From positions 1 through 64,000 of the forward strand of contig CALLUO010000015.1 in the NCBI GenBank assembly GCA_938010425.1: DNA of 64,000 nt. The letters run 5' to 3'. The notes under the pieces are model-generated. The model searched no databases, was not told where the DNA came from, and was given only the letters and a program-made list of their open reading frames with translations. Below are positions 27,525-34,746 of the stretch, in pieces. The stretch's first letter is position 1. Every line of letters starts with the position of its first letter. The DNA is from an uncultured Elioraea sp. GTDB taxonomy: Bacteria; Pseudomonadota; Alphaproteobacteria; Acetobacterales; Acetobacteraceae. The position numbers and the translations under genes were made by a program.

Positions 27525-28220
27525 TCATGCTCCCTGGAAGGGGTAGCGGCGGAGGAGGCGAAACGGCGCGCCGGGTTCCGGCTCGACAAAAAGCGCGATT
27601 TCGCGGAAGAGAGGCGGTGTGGCGAGGGCGGGGGCGAAACGTTCGGCGAGGGCGGAGCGCAACGTCGCCACGCGCTCTTCGGGCAGGCGCGCCGTCAAGG
27701 TCATGTGGAAGCGCCACTCCTCCATGACATAGGGATAACCCCAAGTGTTGAGCAGCTCTTGCTGACGAGGGGTAAGACCGTTGCGAGAACGTTTCGCCAA
27801 CTCCCGCTCAGTTGGTGGGGCACGGAAAGATTCGAAACAGCGCACCATCTCTTCGGCGAGGGCGGATAGTGCTGGGCAGGGCTCGGCCGTGACGACGGCA
27901 AGAAAACCGGCGAGCGAGGCGACGATGAGGGGTGGAGACGAAAAGGGCGTTTGCGTTGCCGCGAAGTTCCGCAACGCTGTGTCGAGATCGTTCTCCGTCC
28001 GGCCCTCGGCCAGCCGGAAGGGAGCCTTGAGCGTGGCATGCCACCCATAGCGGGCCGCATCAGAAATTATCCGCGCATGCTCCTCGCGCGTGACGATCGG
28101 TTCCGGCTTCGGATCGATAGTCTCGCCCGTCTCGGGGTCACGCCCAAGCCACGTACAGCCGGCCAGCCAAAGCGGATGGGTGCTCGGCGGTGCCCAGTAG
28201 AGCGCATAACGATAGGCCAT
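27525..28220 (-). CDS. DUF1045 phosphonate-operon protein, 2H phosphoesterase superfamily
   Basis: This 231-residue protein belongs to the DUF1045 family found in phn operons. Two His-x-Thr motifs are visible: HATLKAPFRLA (about residue 73) and FHMTLTARL (about residue 178). Such paired HxT motifs define the 2H phosphoesterases, which cleave cyclic phosphates and related esters. ATG 28220 (MAYRYALYWAPP) was chosen as the family start; the longer frame runs into phnM. It follows phnM by 31 nt as the last gene of the operon. Since no phnP is present, it may open the cyclic ribose phosphate left by C-P lyase, but that is inference from family and context. Confidence 0.87.
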   Translation of the reverse strand: MAYRYALYWAPPSTHPLWLAGCTWLGRDPETGETIDPKPEPIVTREEHARIISDAARYGWHATLKAPFRLAEGRTENDLDTALRNFAATQTPFSSPPLIVASLAGFLAVVTAEPCPALSALAEEMVRCFESFRAPPTERELAKRSRNGLTPRQQELLNTWGYPYVMEEWRFHMTLTARLPEERVATLRSALAERFAPALATPPLFREIALFVEPEPGAPFRLLRRYPFQGA

Positions 28221-28251: not shown

Positions 28252-29394
28252 TCAGGCGATGCGGCGGCCTTCCCGCCAGACCTGACGGACCAGCGGGTGA
28301 CCATCGGCGAGGTGCACCTGCACGAGATCAGCCCTCAGGCCGGGCGCGATCTCACCGCGATCCGTCAGCCCCACCATGCGGGCTGGTTCGCGCGAGACAG
28401 AGGCGATCGCTGCAGCCAACGCTACGCCATGCTGTTCGTGCAATTGGATCGCAGCGGCCAGCATGGACGCAGGCACATAGTCCGAGGCGAAAACGTCGAC
28501 GAGACCGCGGCGAACGAGATCGGCCGCGGCAACATTGCCCGAGTGGCTGCCGCCGCGAACGATGTTCGGTCCGCCAGCGACCACTCCCATGCCGCGTGCC
28601 TTCGCTGCCTCCGCCGCCTCAAGGCTGACGGGGAATTCGCTGATCGTTACCCCCGCCTCGTGCCAGTGTGCGACCTCTTCGGCGGTGCGATCGTCGTGGC
28701 TCGCCACCGCGACATTGCGTCCGCGCACATGGGCAAGGATGATCTCGCGATTGCGTTCGCGCACGCGCTCACGTGTCTCCCATCGCCTCTTGGCGTAGGC
28801 GCGCGCCTCCTCCTCCGTCATGCCGTAAAGGCGGGCGTGCTTCTTCACATAGCGGTCGAGATCAGCGAACTGGCCCACCCCTGGCGTATGGTCCATCAGG
28901 CTGACCATGCGCACAAGCGGGTCGTCAGCGACCGACTCAAAAGCTTCTGCCATCGCTTCGACGGAGATCTCGCATCGCAGGTGCAGGAAATGTTCGGCAC
29001 GCAGCAAGCCGCGCGGTGCCAGCGCACGCAACTCCGCCACACCCTCGCGAAACATCTGATCGCGATGGTCCGCGTGCTCCACCTCGCCCACGCAGAGCGC
29101 ATCCAACACCGTGGTGATACCCGCTGCAGCGACCTGGGCGTCGTGTGCGAGGAGAGCCGCGCGGGCAGACCAGCGCACACCGGGCCGCGGCATCATATGC
29201 CGCTCGAGATTGTCGGTGTGCACGTCAACGAGGCCGGGCAGGAGCAAATCTCCCTCGAGATCGAGCGCTGAGCTGAGGTGGCTGCGACCACGCTCAACGG
29301 CGGCGATGCGGCCATCCCGCAGCACGACGGTGCCGGCGAACACCTCGTCGGCTGTCACCACCTGTGCATGGGTAAGGATAAGCTCGACGCTCAC
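28252..29394 (-). CDS. phnM: Alpha-D-ribose 1-methylphosphonate 5-triphosphate diphosphatase
   Basis: PhnM removes diphosphate from the ribosyl-phosphonate triphosphate made by PhnGHIL, leaving the substrate of PhnJ. It is an amidohydrolase-fold enzyme of 380 residues. The metal motif is seen as LLLPGLVDVHTDNLERHMMP, and further metal or catalytic blocks as SLMDHTPGVGQF, VASHDDRTAEEV and VFASDYVPASML. The start overlaps the phnL stop (ATGA at 29391-29394). Length and motifs are normal. Confidence 0.95.
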   Translation of the reverse strand: MSVELILTHAQVVTADEVFAGTVVLRDGRIAAVERGRSHLSSALDLEGDLLLPGLVDVHTDNLERHMMPRPGVRWSARAALLAHDAQVAAAGITTVLDALCVGEVEHADHRDQMFREGVAELRALAPRGLLRAEHFLHLRCEISVEAMAEAFESVADDPLVRMVSLMDHTPGVGQFADLDRYVKKHARLYGMTEEEARAYAKRRWETRERVRERNREIILAHVRGRNVAVASHDDRTAEEVAHWHEAGVTISEFPVSLEAAEAAKARGMGVVAGGPNIVRGGSHSGNVAAADLVRRGLVDVFASDYVPASMLAAAIQLHEQHGVALAAAIASVSREPARMVGLTDRGEIAPGLRADLVQVHLADGHPLVRQVWREGRRIA

Positions 29395-30092
29395 GCTGCC
29401 TCCGCTATTGGTGCGAGGGCAAACTCGCGCGTGGCCACGCGCGAACGCACCGCTGGGTCATGGAAAATGCCGACAATGGCGGCATTTGTCTTGCGCGCAT
29501 CTTCGATAAGCGACAGGGCGATATCAGCGTTCACCGGGTCAAGGCTCGCAGTTGGTTCGTCTATCAAAACGATAGGGTAACGCACGATAAACCCCCGGGC
29601 CAGATTTACCCGCTGCTGTTCGCCGCCCGAAAAGGTTGCGGGCGGGAGATGCCATAGCCGTTGCGGCAAGTTCAAGCGCGCAAGCATTGCATCTGCCGCG
29701 CGCAACGCTGCCTGGTGGCTCTCGCCCCTGTGAATGAGAGGTTCAGCCACGATTGCGCGCGCAGACACGCGGGGAATGACGCGCAGGAACTGCGACACGT
29801 GGCCGATCGTGTCGCGCCGGATGGCAAGAATCTGACGCGGGTCAGCGGATGCGAGGTCGACCATGCTACCATGATGACGGACACGGATGCGCCCCGCCTG
29901 CGGGACGTAGGTGCCGTAGAGCGCGCGCAAGAGCGTGCTTTTGCCCGCGCCGGAGGGACCGACGAGGGCGACGCACTCGCCTGGGAATACGGCAAGCGAA
30001 ACGTCGCGCAGCACCGGCAACCGAACACCACCCTGCAAGTGAAGGGTGAACGTTTTGGCCAAACCTTCGACGAGGAGTGCGGGCTCGCTCAT
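29391..30092 (-). CDS. phnL: C-P lyase ABC-type protein PhnL
   Basis: PhnL is an ABC ATPase-like part of the C-P lyase system, needed with PhnGHI for the nucleobase-displacement step. It has 233 residues. Walker A is GPSGAGKSTLLRALYGTYVP, the signature is FSGGEQQRVNLARGF and Walker B is PIVLIDEPTASLDPVN. The position between phnK and phnM, with overlaps on both sides, separates it from transporter ATPases such as LolD, which it resembles in sequence. Confidence 0.95.
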   Translation of the reverse strand: MSEPALLVEGLAKTFTLHLQGGVRLPVLRDVSLAVFPGECVALVGPSGAGKSTLLRALYGTYVPQAGRIRVRHHGSMVDLASADPRQILAIRRDTIGHVSQFLRVIPRVSARAIVAEPLIHRGESHQAALRAADAMLARLNLPQRLWHLPPATFSGGEQQRVNLARGFIVRYPIVLIDEPTASLDPVNADIALSLIEDARKTNAAIVGIFHDPAVRSRVATREFALAPIAEAA

Positions 30093-30865
30093 GCGGCAAG
30101 CACGGAAGAGACGAGGAGCTGGCTGTACGGATGTTGGGGATCATCGAGAACCTGGTCAGTCAGCCCCGCCTCGACCACGCGACCGCGTTGCATGACCAGG
30201 ATGCGCTGCGCGAGCAGGCGCGCGACACCGAGGTCGTGCGTAACCACGATCACGGACAGCCCAAGATCGGCGACGAGGCGCCGCAGCATGTCCAGAAGTC
30301 GTGCCTGGACGGAGACATCGAGCCCGCCTGTTGGTTCATCCATCAGCACAAGCCTCGGGTTGGTGACGAGCACGCGGGCGATCTGCAGCCTTTGTTGCAT
30401 GCCGCCCGAGAAGGTGCGTGGCAGATCGTCGATGCGAGCCACGTCGATTTCGACACGGTCGAGCCAGGCGAGCGCCTGGGCACGGATGTTGCCCCAGTGG
30501 CGCGCGCCTGCCGCCATCAGGCGCTCGCCGACATTGGCGCCGGCGGAGTAGGATAGGCGAAGCCCATCGCGCGGATTTTGGTGCACGAAGCCCCACTCGG
30601 TGCGCGCCAGCAGGCGCCGGCGCGGTTCATCGAGTCTCGTGAGCTCAATCTCGCCGAACCGGTCGGAGCGGTAGAGGATGGAGCCAGCGGTGGGCGGAAT
30701 GAAGCCGTGGATGGCCCGCAACAGCGTGGTCTTGCCCGATCCGCTCTCCCCAACGATGGCAACCACCTCGCCGGGCCAGAGCTCGAAGGAAACGCCGTCG
30801 ACGGCGGCGAGAGCACCGAAACGCACGTCCAGGCAGCGCACAGAAAGGAGAGGGAGATCGCTCAT
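30089..30865 (-). CDS. phnK: C-P lyase ABC-type protein PhnK
   Basis: PhnK docks as an ABC dimer on the PhnGHIJ core complex through PhnJ. It has 258 residues from ATG 30865, which overlaps the phnJ stop. Walker A GESGSGKTTLLRAIHGFIPP, signature FSGGMQQRLQIARVL, Walker B RLVLMDEPTGGLDVSVQARL and VVTHDLGVARLLA are intact. The oligopeptide-transporter-like C-terminal end is short, as is usual for PhnK. Confidence 0.95.
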   Translation of the reverse strand: MSDLPLLSVRCLDVRFGALAAVDGVSFELWPGEVVAIVGESGSGKTTLLRAIHGFIPPTAGSILYRSDRFGEIELTRLDEPRRRLLARTEWGFVHQNPRDGLRLSYSAGANVGERLMAAGARHWGNIRAQALAWLDRVEIDVARIDDLPRTFSGGMQQRLQIARVLVTNPRLVLMDEPTGGLDVSVQARLLDMLRRLVADLGLSVIVVTHDLGVARLLAQRILVMQRGRVVEAGLTDQVLDDPQHPYSQLLVSSVLAA

Positions 30866-31707
30866 GCCGTTTTCCCTCGTGTGCGGCGGCGTTCGCACCA
30901 ATCCGTATCGCTGCAGATGTAGCGACGTGTGCCGCGATCGTCGATGAGGATCTCGTCGAGATAAGACTCTGTGGATCCACACAGCGCGCAGGCCGCTTCC
31001 GCCTTCCAGGGCCGAAACGGATGGTCCTCAAAGGCGAGTGAGATGACATCAGTATATGGCGGCACGGCGTAGATCCGCTTCTCGCGACCCGCCCCGAAGA
31101 GGTGGATCGCGGGCGAGCGGTGCAGCTTTGGGTTGTCGAAAGCCGGAATGGGGGAGGGCGCCATCACGTAGCGACCGTGCACGAGCACGGGATAGTCGTA
31201 GGCGAGTGTAATGCGCCCGTGCTGTGCGATGTCTTCATAGAGCTTGACATGCATGATTCCGTACTCGGCGAGCGCATGAAGACGCCTCGTCTCTGCGCGC
31301 GAAGGCTCGAGCCGCCAGAGAGGCTCGGGTTGCGGCACCTGGTACACCATGATCTGGCCGGGCCTGAGCGGTGTCTCGGGAATTCGGTGACGTGTCTGGA
31401 TGAGAGTCGCCTCCTCAGTGCGCGTGGTGGTGCGCACGCCGGCAACCCGGCTGAAGAACTGGCGGATGGAGACAGCGTTGGTGGTATCGTCTGCCCCCTG
31501 GTCAATCACCTTCAGCACGTCATTGCGCCCAATGACGGCAGCCGTCACTTGCATGCCACCTGTCCCCCAGCCTCGGGCGAGCGGCATCTCGCGTGAGGCG
31601 AAAGGCACCTGATGGCCGGGGATGGCAAGCGCCTTCAGCAGGGCACGCCTAATCTCGCGTTTCGTCTGCTCGTCGAGATAGGCAAAGGTGTAACTGGTCG
31701 TGTTCAT
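30862..31707 (-). CDS. phnJ: Alpha-D-ribose 1-methylphosphonate 5-phosphate C-P lyase
   Basis: PhnJ is the radical-SAM enzyme that breaks the C-P bond. It has 281 residues. The C-terminal cysteine set is complete: Cys-x2-Cys in ACALCGS, then 21 residues to Cys in YICSDTD, then 5 residues to a final Cys (DWCERRR). That spacing equals the C241/C244/C266/C272 pattern of the E. coli enzyme, where the first three bind the [4Fe-4S] cluster and the fourth gives the thiyl radical. A conserved Gly-rich region (GTGGMQVTAAVI-like WGTGGMQVTA) is present. Overlaps on both sides show tight coupling. Confidence 0.97.
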   Translation of the reverse strand: MNTTSYTFAYLDEQTKREIRRALLKALAIPGHQVPFASREMPLARGWGTGGMQVTAAVIGRNDVLKVIDQGADDTTNAVSIRQFFSRVAGVRTTTRTEEATLIQTRHRIPETPLRPGQIMVYQVPQPEPLWRLEPSRAETRRLHALAEYGIMHVKLYEDIAQHGRITLAYDYPVLVHGRYVMAPSPIPAFDNPKLHRSPAIHLFGAGREKRIYAVPPYTDVISLAFEDHPFRPWKAEAACALCGSTESYLDEILIDDRGTRRYICSDTDWCERRRTRGKTA

Positions 31708-32798
31708 TCCGCAGCCTTAAGGGCGGTTTCCGCGCGTGCTGCCGCCTCTGCGCGCAACGAGCGGATCAGTTCAAGTTCGGACTGGAAATCGACATAGTGC
31801 GGCAGCTTCAAATGCTGCACGAAGCCAGATGCCTCGACGTGGTCGGCGTGGGAGAGGACGAACTCCTCGTCCTGGGCGGGCGCCACCACGTCCTCGCCAA
31901 GTTCGCGCGCCTGCAGGGCACGATCGACCAGCGCCATGCCCATCGCGCGGCGTTCGGCATGGCCGAAGACGAGCCCATAGCCTCGGGTGAACTGGGGCGG
32001 CTCTGTCTTTGAGCCCTTGAACTGGTTTACCATCTGGCATTCCGTCACCGTGATGTCCCCGATCTCGATTGGAAAGCCGAGCTCCTCTGGCACGATCTCG
32101 ACGGCAACGGTGCCGTAACGGATTTCTGCCGCGAATGGGTGCGTGCTGCCGTAGCCGCGCTGTGTGGAGTAGCCCATGGCGAGCAGAAAGCCCTCGTCGC
32201 CGCGAGCGAGTGCTTGCAACCTGACGGCGCGCGAAGCTGGAAACATAAGCGGCTCGCGCGTGAGATCGGGCGGCGTTCGGCCGTCATCGGGTTCGCTCGT
32301 AAGCAACCCTTCCGCCTCTAAGGCGGCGGTGGCGCGCGGCATATCGGCATCCAGCGGCGCCTCCGCGGACGGTGCGCATGGAGGCTCCTCGTTCGTGATC
32401 AGGCTGAAGTCAAGCAGGCGGTGGGTGTAGTCGACGGTGGGGCCGAGCACCTGACCGCCCGGCAGGTCCTTGTAGATGGCGCTGATCCGCCGCGCGATCG
32501 TCATGCGCGCCGTGTCGATCGGAAGACTGGCACCAAAGCGGGGTAGGGTGGTGCGAAAGGCGCGCAGGAGAAAAGCCGCCTCCTGGAGATCGCCCTGCGC
32601 CTGCTTGATGGCAAGTGCGGCAAGTTCTCGATCATAAAGGCTCGCTTCGCCCATCACGCGGTCGACAGCGAGGCCGAGCTGCTGTTCGATTTGTGCCACT
32701 TCGATTTGCGGCAGTGTCCGATCGCCACGACGGGAGGCCGCAAGAAGCGCGCGGCTGGCCTCAATCGCCGCCTCACCGCCTTTCACTGCGACGTACAT
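31704..32798 (-). CDS. phnI: C-P lyase core subunit / nucleosidase PhnI
   Basis: PhnI displaces adenine from ATP and, with PhnG, PhnH and PhnL, joins ribose to the phosphonate. It has 364 residues from ATG 32798; an upstream extension of 26 codons lies in phnH sequence and was rejected. Family phrases include MYVAVKGGEAAIEAS at the start, GYGSTHPFAAEIRYGTVAVE and QDEEFVLSHADHVEASGFVQ-HLKLPHYVDFQ. The phnH stop is 4 nt upstream. Confidence 0.96.
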   Translation of the reverse strand: MYVAVKGGEAAIEASRALLAASRRGDRTLPQIEVAQIEQQLGLAVDRVMGEASLYDRELAALAIKQAQGDLQEAAFLLRAFRTTLPRFGASLPIDTARMTIARRISAIYKDLPGGQVLGPTVDYTHRLLDFSLITNEEPPCAPSAEAPLDADMPRATAALEAEGLLTSEPDDGRTPPDLTREPLMFPASRAVRLQALARGDEGFLLAMGYSTQRGYGSTHPFAAEIRYGTVAVEIVPEELGFPIEIGDITVTECQMVNQFKGSKTEPPQFTRGYGLVFGHAERRAMGMALVDRALQARELGEDVVAPAQDEEFVLSHADHVEASGFVQHLKLPHYVDFQSELELIRSLRAEAAARAETALKAAE

Positions 32799-32802
32799 AG
32801 GC

Positions 32803-33378
32803 TTAGACCTCCTGCACGACGGTCGTCCGCGGGAGAGCGATCGCCTCTGTTCTGGTGATGAGAAGGACATCGACACCGCGCGGGTAGAGCGCGAGGTTGC
32901 GCGCGCGCCAACCTAGGAATGCCTCCGAAAGCCCATCCACCGGAATAAGTGTTGCGCTGTCGATACCAGGCCCGGAGAGGCGAAGGACACGACCCTGAAC
33001 AAATCCCTCAACGAAAAGGACCAGAGTGGCAGACCGTTCGGGCGCCTCGTCAGTGCCCGGGGTGAGCGCATCGAAGGGGGCGCTGTCGGCACACGCGAAA
33101 GCGAAGCTGGCGTCAGCGGGATCGGAAACGAGGGGGCTTGCAGTATGAAACCGCAGCCATTCGCAAACCGTTCGGGTCGCAAAGGAGGCGTCAAGCCAAA
33201 GCGGGGTGTCGCGATCGCAGAGCGCAAGCAAGATTGCAGCCGCGGCCTGAGGAAGAGGCGGCGGCGGATCGCATGGCGGCAGAGAAACGATGGTACCTGG
33301 CCGCGCTGTCGCCTCGAGCAGGGCACGAAACGCCGCCTGTGAGTCGTGGATCGGATCAGCAAAGCCGCCCGTCAACAC
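32803..33378 (-). CDS. phnH: C-P lyase core subunit PhnH
   Basis: PhnH is a non-catalytic partner in the PhnGHIJ complex. It has 191 residues. The start is GTG 33378, 3 nt after phnG. The family opening reads GFADPIHDSQAAFRALLEAT-ARPG. Another shared block is CDRDTPLWLDASF. A region that is often variable (about 115-140) is present and in frame. Nothing odd was seen. Confidence 0.93.
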   Translation of the reverse strand: MLTGGFADPIHDSQAAFRALLEATARPGTIVSLPPCDPPPPLPQAAAAILLALCDRDTPLWLDASFATRTVCEWLRFHTASPLVSDPADASFAFACADSAPFDALTPGTDEAPERSATLVLFVEGFVQGRVLRLSGPGIDSATLIPVDGLSEAFLGWRARNLALYPRGVDVLLITRTEAIALPRTTVVQEV

Positions 33379-33381
33379 CGC

Positions 33382-33855
33382 TCACCCCATGCGAACCAGC
33401 GTCTGGAAATCAACGCGAGTGGCTGCCGACTGGCGCAGCATCTCGTCCCGTTCCGCCGCCTGGCGGCGTTGCTCAGGGCCGATCAAAGCCTGGTTCAGCT
33501 GGGCGAACAGCGAAGTCTGCAGCAGACAGTCAAAGAGTGCGGCAAGTTCCGCGCGCCGATGGTCGCGTCCGGCGATATAGGCGTGGCCGATGGTGCCGCA
33601 GGGCAAGGTGACGGAGCAGCGGGTAACCGTCATCTCGCCGAGATTAAACGAAGCGCCGTCACCGCCAATACGTCCGCGCACCATGACCATGCCCGTTTCC
33701 GGCCCACGCAATCGAGTCCAGGCCGGAACAGGGTCGAGGGTGCTGAGTGCAGCCTCCAGCGTCTCGCGTGGCGTGCGGGCGAGCACACTGAGCCAAAGCC
33801 GGCGTGACGCCAGACTGTTGGGCGATGCCTCTGGGAGGTGGGGTTGGAGACTCAT
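33382..33855 (-). CDS. phnG: C-P lyase core subunit PhnG
   Basis: PhnG is the first gene of the C-P lyase operon, 157 residues. It shows RRLWLSVLARTPRETLEAAL near the N-terminus, then the block LRGPETGMVMVRGRIGGDGA and GEMTVTRCSVTLPCGTIGHA-Y, all typical of PhnG. The 5' end is close to the phnF operator: the start codon is 26 nt from the palindrome. Expression therefore probably depends directly on PhnF. Confidence 0.95.
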   Translation of the reverse strand: MSLQPHLPEASPNSLASRRLWLSVLARTPRETLEAALSTLDPVPAWTRLRGPETGMVMVRGRIGGDGASFNLGEMTVTRCSVTLPCGTIGHAYIAGRDHRRAELAALFDCLLQTSLFAQLNQALIGPEQRRQAAERDEMLRQSAATRVDFQTLVRMG

Positions 33856-33892: not shown

Positions 33893-33960
33893 CTCTACAT
33901 TTGCACGACTATGATGGCGCGACAATAGCCGAGGCACCGCTGGAGGCACGTGACCATCTC

Positions 33961-34746
33961 GTGACGCTGGTCCCCAACGATCCCACAGCACCACAACGTT
34001 TTGGCGGGAACGTCGCCAGCACTGCACTTGCGCGGCGTGCGGGTGTTGCGCTTTGGCGTCAAATCGAAGCCGTTCTGGCAAGCGAACTCGCTTCCGGCGT
34101 CATTAAGCCAGGCCAAAAACTCCCCACGGAACAACAACTTTCGGTCCGCTTCCGCGTCAACCGCCATACCGTGCGCCGTGCGATGGAAGAGTTGGAACGG
34201 CGTGGGCTGATTCGCATCGACCATGGCCGCGGCACCTTCGCTGCCTCAGCCTTAATCGACTACGCGCTCAGCCCGCGGACCCGTTTTTCCGAAATCATCG
34301 CTCGGCAAAACCGTGAACCTACGGGGCGAATCCTGCGCGTGTCTGAGGTGCCGGCCGACCAGGCGGCGGCAAAAGCGCTCGCTGTGCGGCGAGGCGTGCT
34401 GCTGTGGCGTGTGGATCGTCTTGGGTACGCCGATGGCAGGCCGGTCAGCTTCACGCAGCATCACTTTCTGCGCAGCCGATTTCCTGGCTTGGCCGAGGCG
34501 GTATACAGCTCGCGCGGGTCCATTACCCGCGCCCTCGCTGCTTGCGGCGTGACGGAATATTTCCGCCGTTCCAGTCGTATCAGCGCCAGGCTGCCTTCGG
34601 CTGAGGAGGCGGACTTGCTCGACCATCCACGCAATCACGCGGTGCTGGTGACCGAAGCGGTGAACGTTGATGTCGAGGGCGTGCCAATGGAGTATGGTGT
34701 TGGTGTATACCCGGCTGGCCGGGTACAGATTTCGGTTGAGTTCTAA
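33961..34746 (+). CDS. phnF: Phosphonate-operon regulator, GntR/HutC family with UTRA domain
   Basis: PhnF is a ligand-controlled repressor. The N-terminal winged helix (about residues 20-85) has LPTEQQLSVRFRVNRHTVRR and the wing IDHGRGTFA. A UTRA effector domain follows (about 105-255, with VSEVPADQAAAKALAVRRG and RLPSAEEADLLDHPRNHAVL). The frame opens at TTG 33901; I chose in-frame GTG 33961 (261 residues), which has GGAGG about 14 nt upstream. Neither start is strong. It is divergent from the C-P lyase operon and probably represses it, and itself, through the palindrome at 33881-33892. Confidence 0.92.
   Translation: MTLVPNDPTAPQRFGGNVASTALARRAGVALWRQIEAVLASELASGVIKPGQKLPTEQQLSVRFRVNRHTVRRAMEELERRGLIRIDHGRGTFAASALIDYALSPRTRFSEIIARQNREPTGRILRVSEVPADQAAAKALAVRRGVLLWRVDRLGYADGRPVSFTQHHFLRSRFPGLAEAVYSSRGSITRALAACGVTEYFRRSSRISARLPSAEEADLLDHPRNHAVLVTEAVNVDVEGVPMEYGVGVYPAGRVQISVEF

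Follow-up and report, generated by a model that had tools for sequence, protein, structure and literature searches.

Genomic context of the DUF1045 gene

The window analysed here is a 64,000-nt stretch from an Elioraea MAG (G000) of 2.39 Mb and 88.6% completeness. Its minus strand carries genes in the order phnG-H-I-J-K-L-M-DUF1045, with phnF divergent upstream. The features of the locus are as follows.

27525..28220, minus strand: DUF1045/TIGR03223 2H phosphoesterase, proposed 5-phosphoribosyl 1,2-cyclic phosphate (PRcP) phosphodiesterase (TIGR03223, PF06299, 2H fold)
27699..27707, minus strand: second HxT motif, H172-M-T174 (HMTLT, 172-176); H invariant, T replaced by S in one homologue
28032..28040, minus strand: first HxT motif, H61-A-T63, followed by L-K65 (HATLK, 61-65); invariant in 38 homologues
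28252..29394, minus strand: phnM, ribosyl triphosphate diphosphatase, ending 31 nt before DUF1045 (TIGR02318, 453.9 bits; NF011984, 517.8 bits)
29391..30092, minus strand: phnL (TIGR02324, 319.5 bits)
30089..30865, minus strand: phnK, in an ORF extending to 30982 (TIGR02323, 364 bits, residues 44-295 of the long ORF)
30862..31707, minus strand: phnJ, C-P bond cleavage (PF06007, E 1.1e-143)
31704..32798, minus strand: phnI, with the start at 32798 inferred (operon place and homology to the annotated PhnI in L140)
32803..33378, minus strand: phnH (TIGR03292, 177.9 bits)
33382..33855, minus strand: phnG (TIGR03293, 162.2 bits)
33901..34746, plus strand: phnF regulator, divergent (TIGR02325, 244.1 bits)

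The DUF1045 gene is a real ORF of 231 aa; its mechanical start lies at 28304, and the family alignment favours the ATG at 28220. The phnK start at 30865 is the one suggested by the profile match. PhnI passes no NCBIfam model and was identified by its place and its homology to annotated PhnI. Downstream of DUF1045 lie hutU and hutH, named by similarity. Within the genome collection, the closest relative is another uncultured Elioraea (L145, genome G397), with 96% PhnJ identity, 186 of 231 DUF1045 residues identical and the same gene order on both sides.

As an earlier note on this DNA had described, DUF1045 is the last gene of the phnGHIJKLM unit, and the unit contains neither phnP nor phnN. 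The note proposed that DUF1045 replaces PhnP. We searched for a phnP gene elsewhere in the source genome; none was found at 88.6% completeness, with no match to PhnP (TIGR03307) even at E 0.001 either there or in the genome of the nearest relative. PhnN was likewise absent from both of these genomes, the source genome being 88.6% complete. The best match to the PhnN model (E 1.5e-7) is probably a guanylate kinase.

DUF1045 is a predicted 2H phosphoesterase

The DUF1045 protein scores 282.6 bits against TIGR03223 (cut-off 248.95 bits), its sole NCBIfam match, and 199.7 bits over the full domain of PF06299 (DUF1045; cut-off 24.3 bits). As a member of this known family the protein is unremarkable, and the role of the family has so far been put forward in print as a proposal. 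Both HxT motifs, H61-T63 and H172-T174, are present and conserved family-wide. Across the 38 aligned homologues there is no variation at H61, T63 or H172, and residue 174 is T or S, so the motifs are not a chance occurrence; all 38 keep the two Hx[TS] motifs of the 2H superfamily. The protein has no match to PhnP, which has a different fold, and no PHP domain, the Pfam search returning DUF1045, 2_5_RNA_ligase2 and a weak GGDEF_2 match only. PhnPP of Eggerthella is a PHP-type cyclic phosphodiesterase.

An AlphaFold2 model built with 38 homologues has a mean pLDDT of 96.5. Its best structural matches in the PDB are all of the 2H fold, namely Bacillus YjcG (2D4G, Z 15.4), E. coli LigT (Z 13.7) and the Arabidopsis cyclic phosphodiesterase (CPDase; 1FSI/1JH6, Z 13.1), with Usb1 and AKAP18 also among them. 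Sequence searches against solved structures gave only matches at E 0.4-0.8, so the assignment to the 2H fold rests on the predicted model; a profile search lined up the two HxT motifs with those of YjcG, at a weak E-value. By predicted structure, then, the DUF1045 protein is a 2H phosphoesterase.

YjcG and LigT are not known as phosphonate enzymes and are shorter (~170 residues vs 231). The plant CPDase acts on a ribose 1,2-cyclic phosphate and produces the 1-phosphate from it (PMC5283653; Genschik 1997, as cited in PMC8968299), which is the chemistry that DUF1045 would have to perform on PRcP, although its substrate is ADP-ribose cyclic phosphate and it shares only ~10% identity with DUF1045. 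In our analysis this makes the plant enzyme a better precedent for PRcP opening than 2',3'-cyclic nucleotide hydrolysis. E. coli PhnP (TIGR03307), a metallo-beta-lactamase type PRcP phosphodiesterase, has the same reaction and pathway step as proposed for DUF1045 but is non-homologous and of another fold.

DUF1045 and PhnP exclude each other in C-P lyase genomes

In a sample of 397 Pseudomonadota genomes, 96 had PhnJ above cut-off (PF06007). DUF1045 (E < 1e-30) was present in 70 of these 96 vs 9 of the 301 genomes lacking PhnJ, in statistics that ignore relatedness, and every PhnJ-positive alphaproteobacterium sampled carried it (66/66). Co-occurrence with PhnP was counted in 80 PhnJ-positive Pseudomonadota: 58 had DUF1045, 20 had PhnP above cut-off, two had neither and none had both, vs 14.5 expected to have both (Fisher p 7e-17, uncorrected for relatedness). 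Mapped on the PhnJ tree, the DUF1045 and PhnP states require no more than about two changes, so the mutual exclusion across genomes, which the earlier note had suggested looking for, reflects few independent swaps. Low-scoring metallo-beta-lactamase matches elsewhere in other genomes, mostly of 20-120 bits vs a PhnP cut-off of 272, were not counted as PhnP.

A second set comprised 80 further phn loci from several phyla, picked by similarity to the PhnJ of the window. DUF1045 accompanies phn genes there in alpha-, beta- and gammaproteobacteria, Actinomycetes, Desulfovibrionia and Acidithiobacillia; PhnP was found in a minority of the loci and together with DUF1045 in none. Within the Alcaligenaceae, one Bordetella species carries DUF1045, and Pollutimonas, Advenella and Allopusillimonas carry PhnP.

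The genomes with neither gene bear on a different reading, in which DUF1045 serves the phn cluster in an accessory or repair capacity, as a phosphoesterase for PhnI/PhnM side products or a different cyclic nucleotide, for example, and the opening of PRcP falls to a promiscuous housekeeping phosphodiesterase. Two PhnJ-positive genomes, and three cyanobacteria with phnGHIJKLM, manage without PhnP and DUF1045, and DUF1045 also occurs in genomes lacking PhnJ, three times beside phnM, as such a reading would allow. It leaves unexplained, however, both the absence of any co-occurrence with PhnP (0/80) and the presence of DUF1045 in every PhnJ-positive alphaproteobacterium sampled, and we consider it improbable.

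The two PhnJ-positive genomes are gammaproteobacteria (G339, locus L086; G342, locus L087) with phnF-G-H-I-J-K-L-M-N and no PhnP or DUF1045 in the genome; they are nested among PhnP-bearing relatives. At two cyanobacterial loci without PhnP, DUF1045 or PhnN (L190:14834-16218; L203:16118-17538), an HD-domain protein and a calcineurin-like phosphoesterase directly follow phnM and may represent a third type of cyclic phosphodiesterase. The phn region of Mesorhizobium pMLa also contains a similar metallophosphoesterase (L141:3171-4028). Several alphaproteobacterial loci have a second phnM-like gene after phnF (L089:12320-13483, L099:11889-13022, L133:13561-14694).

DUF1045 copies away from the phn locus

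Among the genomes whose phn locus has neither gene are eight in which both were searched for elsewhere (Acidiphilium, Pararoseomonas, Roseomonas, Ochrobactrum, Brucella, Bradyrhizobium, Affinirhizobium and Agrobacterium). All eight carry DUF1045 elsewhere in the genome and have no PhnP above cut-off. This in-trans copy adjoins phnM in seven of the eight, sometimes with phnN or phnCDE as well, and 16 signature residues are kept in every one. Where a standalone copy is the only DUF1045 of a PhnJ-positive genome, the signature is unchanged in four of five cases, the fifth having K65V.

DUF1045 also occurs in nine genomes lacking PhnJ, beside phnM in three and standalone in the rest. Several of these copies have no phn neighbours, which indicates that some DUF1045 proteins act outside C-P lyase or are remnants. 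The three copies beside phnM (L101 in G095, L106 in G374 and L108 in G287), two of them also with phnN, are in genomes with no PhnJ match. Standalone copies could not be treated as a single separate clade, as the label needs ~10 changes on the tree.

Second DUF1045 copies in the Rhizobiaceae (L119-L122) lie beside genes for OHCU decarboxylase and ureidoglycolate lyase, of purine breakdown. These copies, by contrast, group as a clade, and their motif residues have changed: Y162 and R144 are altered in 4/4, and 2/4 no longer have the Thr in either HxT motif. The change of T63 to V was seen only in two diverged paralogues.

Standalone copies far from phn genes, together with the fold shared with LigT and YjcG, would also fit a role of DUF1045 in RNA or nucleotide metabolism, as a LigT-like 2',3'-cyclic phosphodiesterase merely travelling with phn genes. 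The association with PhnJ is nevertheless far above chance (70/96 vs 9/301) and DUF1045 copies split from the main locus still sit beside phnM, so that we give this explanation very little credence.

PhnN and the product of the reaction

PhnN, the enzyme of the following step, was found in all 20 PhnP genomes and in 55 of the 58 DUF1045 genomes, a distribution that speaks for ribose 1,5-bisphosphate as the product of DUF1045 too. The three DUF1045 genomes without PhnN are the source genome, G016 and G032. In the second set PhnN is absent from two more Elioraea MAGs (G397/L145 and G398/L146), making three Elioraea MAGs without it, and from Acidiphilium, all with DUF1045. By genome, those with a C-P lyase operon, DUF1045 and no PhnN anywhere are G000, G397, G398, G016, G032 and G401; the lack of PhnN in three Elioraea MAGs is the odd feature here. 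Elioraea bin.267 (L158) retains a convergent phnN adjoining DUF1045, and PhnN was therefore likely lost within Elioraea, the gap in the other members of the genus being secondary. As a possible bypass of PhnN, ribose 1,5-bisphosphate isomerase received no support: matches to TIGR00511 were below cut-off, occurred both with and without PhnN and are probably MtnA-like.

These genomes raise the possibility that DUF1045 opens the ring to give ribose 2,5-bisphosphate, or cuts both ester bonds and leaves ribose 5-phosphate and Pi, so that PhnN is not needed. PhnN is missing from the source genome, two more Elioraea MAGs, Acidiphilium, G016 and G032, each of which has DUF1045, while all of the PhnP genomes sampled have PhnN (20/20), and the products that most 2H enzymes form from 2',3'-cyclic substrates carry the phosphate at the 2' oxygen (PMC5283653). 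Yet 55/58 DUF1045 genomes have kept PhnN, often adjacent, the gap in Elioraea looks like secondary loss given the phnN next to DUF1045 in bin.267, and the plant 2H enzyme acting on a 1,2-cyclic phosphate produces the 1-phosphate. A different product is thus unlikely. It is similarly doubtful that in the Elioraea lineage, Acidiphilium, G016 and G032 DUF1045 concludes C-P lyase without PhnN, by another product or a non-PhnN route, in an end game unlike that of E. coli.

Proposed role of DUF1045 and its significance

Taken together, the exclusion of PhnP, the association with PhnJ, the in-trans copies, the predicted 2H fold and the CPDase precedent support the earlier note's proposal of a non-homologous replacement of PhnP, and DUF1045 is very probably a 2H cyclic phosphodiesterase that performs the PhnP step of the C-P lyase pathway. 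The protein would bind PRcP between its two lobes, where H61-T63 and H172-T174 would hold the cyclic phosphate and, in the roles of general base and acid, let water open the ring. R133, R144 and Y162, which are conserved family-wide and found within or next to an additional helical segment, may recognise the 5-phosphate. The analysis establishes family membership, the predicted fold, conservation of the motifs, the place in the operon and the pattern of co-occurrence, and from there we infer the substrate, the product, the catalytic steps and the part given to the three residues. Our literature search found no published enzyme assay or knockout of DUF1045.

The idea that DUF1045 replaces PhnP is already in print and is more than 10 years old. 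In a 2023 review (PMC10574752), citing Podzelinska 2009, phnP is given for 27/54 operons and rcsF, of the 2H superfamily, for 16 operons lacking phnP, with the suggestion that it could process PRcP. The same PRcP role was proposed for marine clusters in 2013 (PMC3840354), and a 2021 paper (PMC8235418), citing Hove-Jensen 2014, names DUF1045 as a putative phosphoribosyl cyclic phosphodiesterase. In Phaeobacter, P starvation strongly increased the DUF1045 protein along with PhnI, J, L and M (PMC10132767). The rcsF of the SEED-based papers (PMC10574752, PMC3840354, PMC5649143) is probably DUF1045/TIGR03223 because the gene order matches in Rhodobacterales, an equation that is our own and absent from those papers. 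As in Elioraea, the rcsF/DUF1045 systems have a member of the same family next to phnM with phnP absent, and nothing categorical sets the two apart, although the Elioraea lineage is also without phnN. What the present analysis contributes beyond these papers is counts on a larger scale, the evidence from copies in trans, the fold together with the CPDase precedent, and the gap at PhnN.

The pathway that frees methane from methylphosphonate and degrades glyphosate-type compounds includes the opening of PRcP. If DUF1045 performs this step, the majority of alphaproteobacterial and many betaproteobacterial C-P lyase systems would rely on a 2H enzyme for a reaction that in E. coli falls to an unrelated metallo-enzyme. 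This would be a clean non-homologous replacement, and the DUF family could be renamed. The lineages lacking PhnN are where the textbook route may fail.
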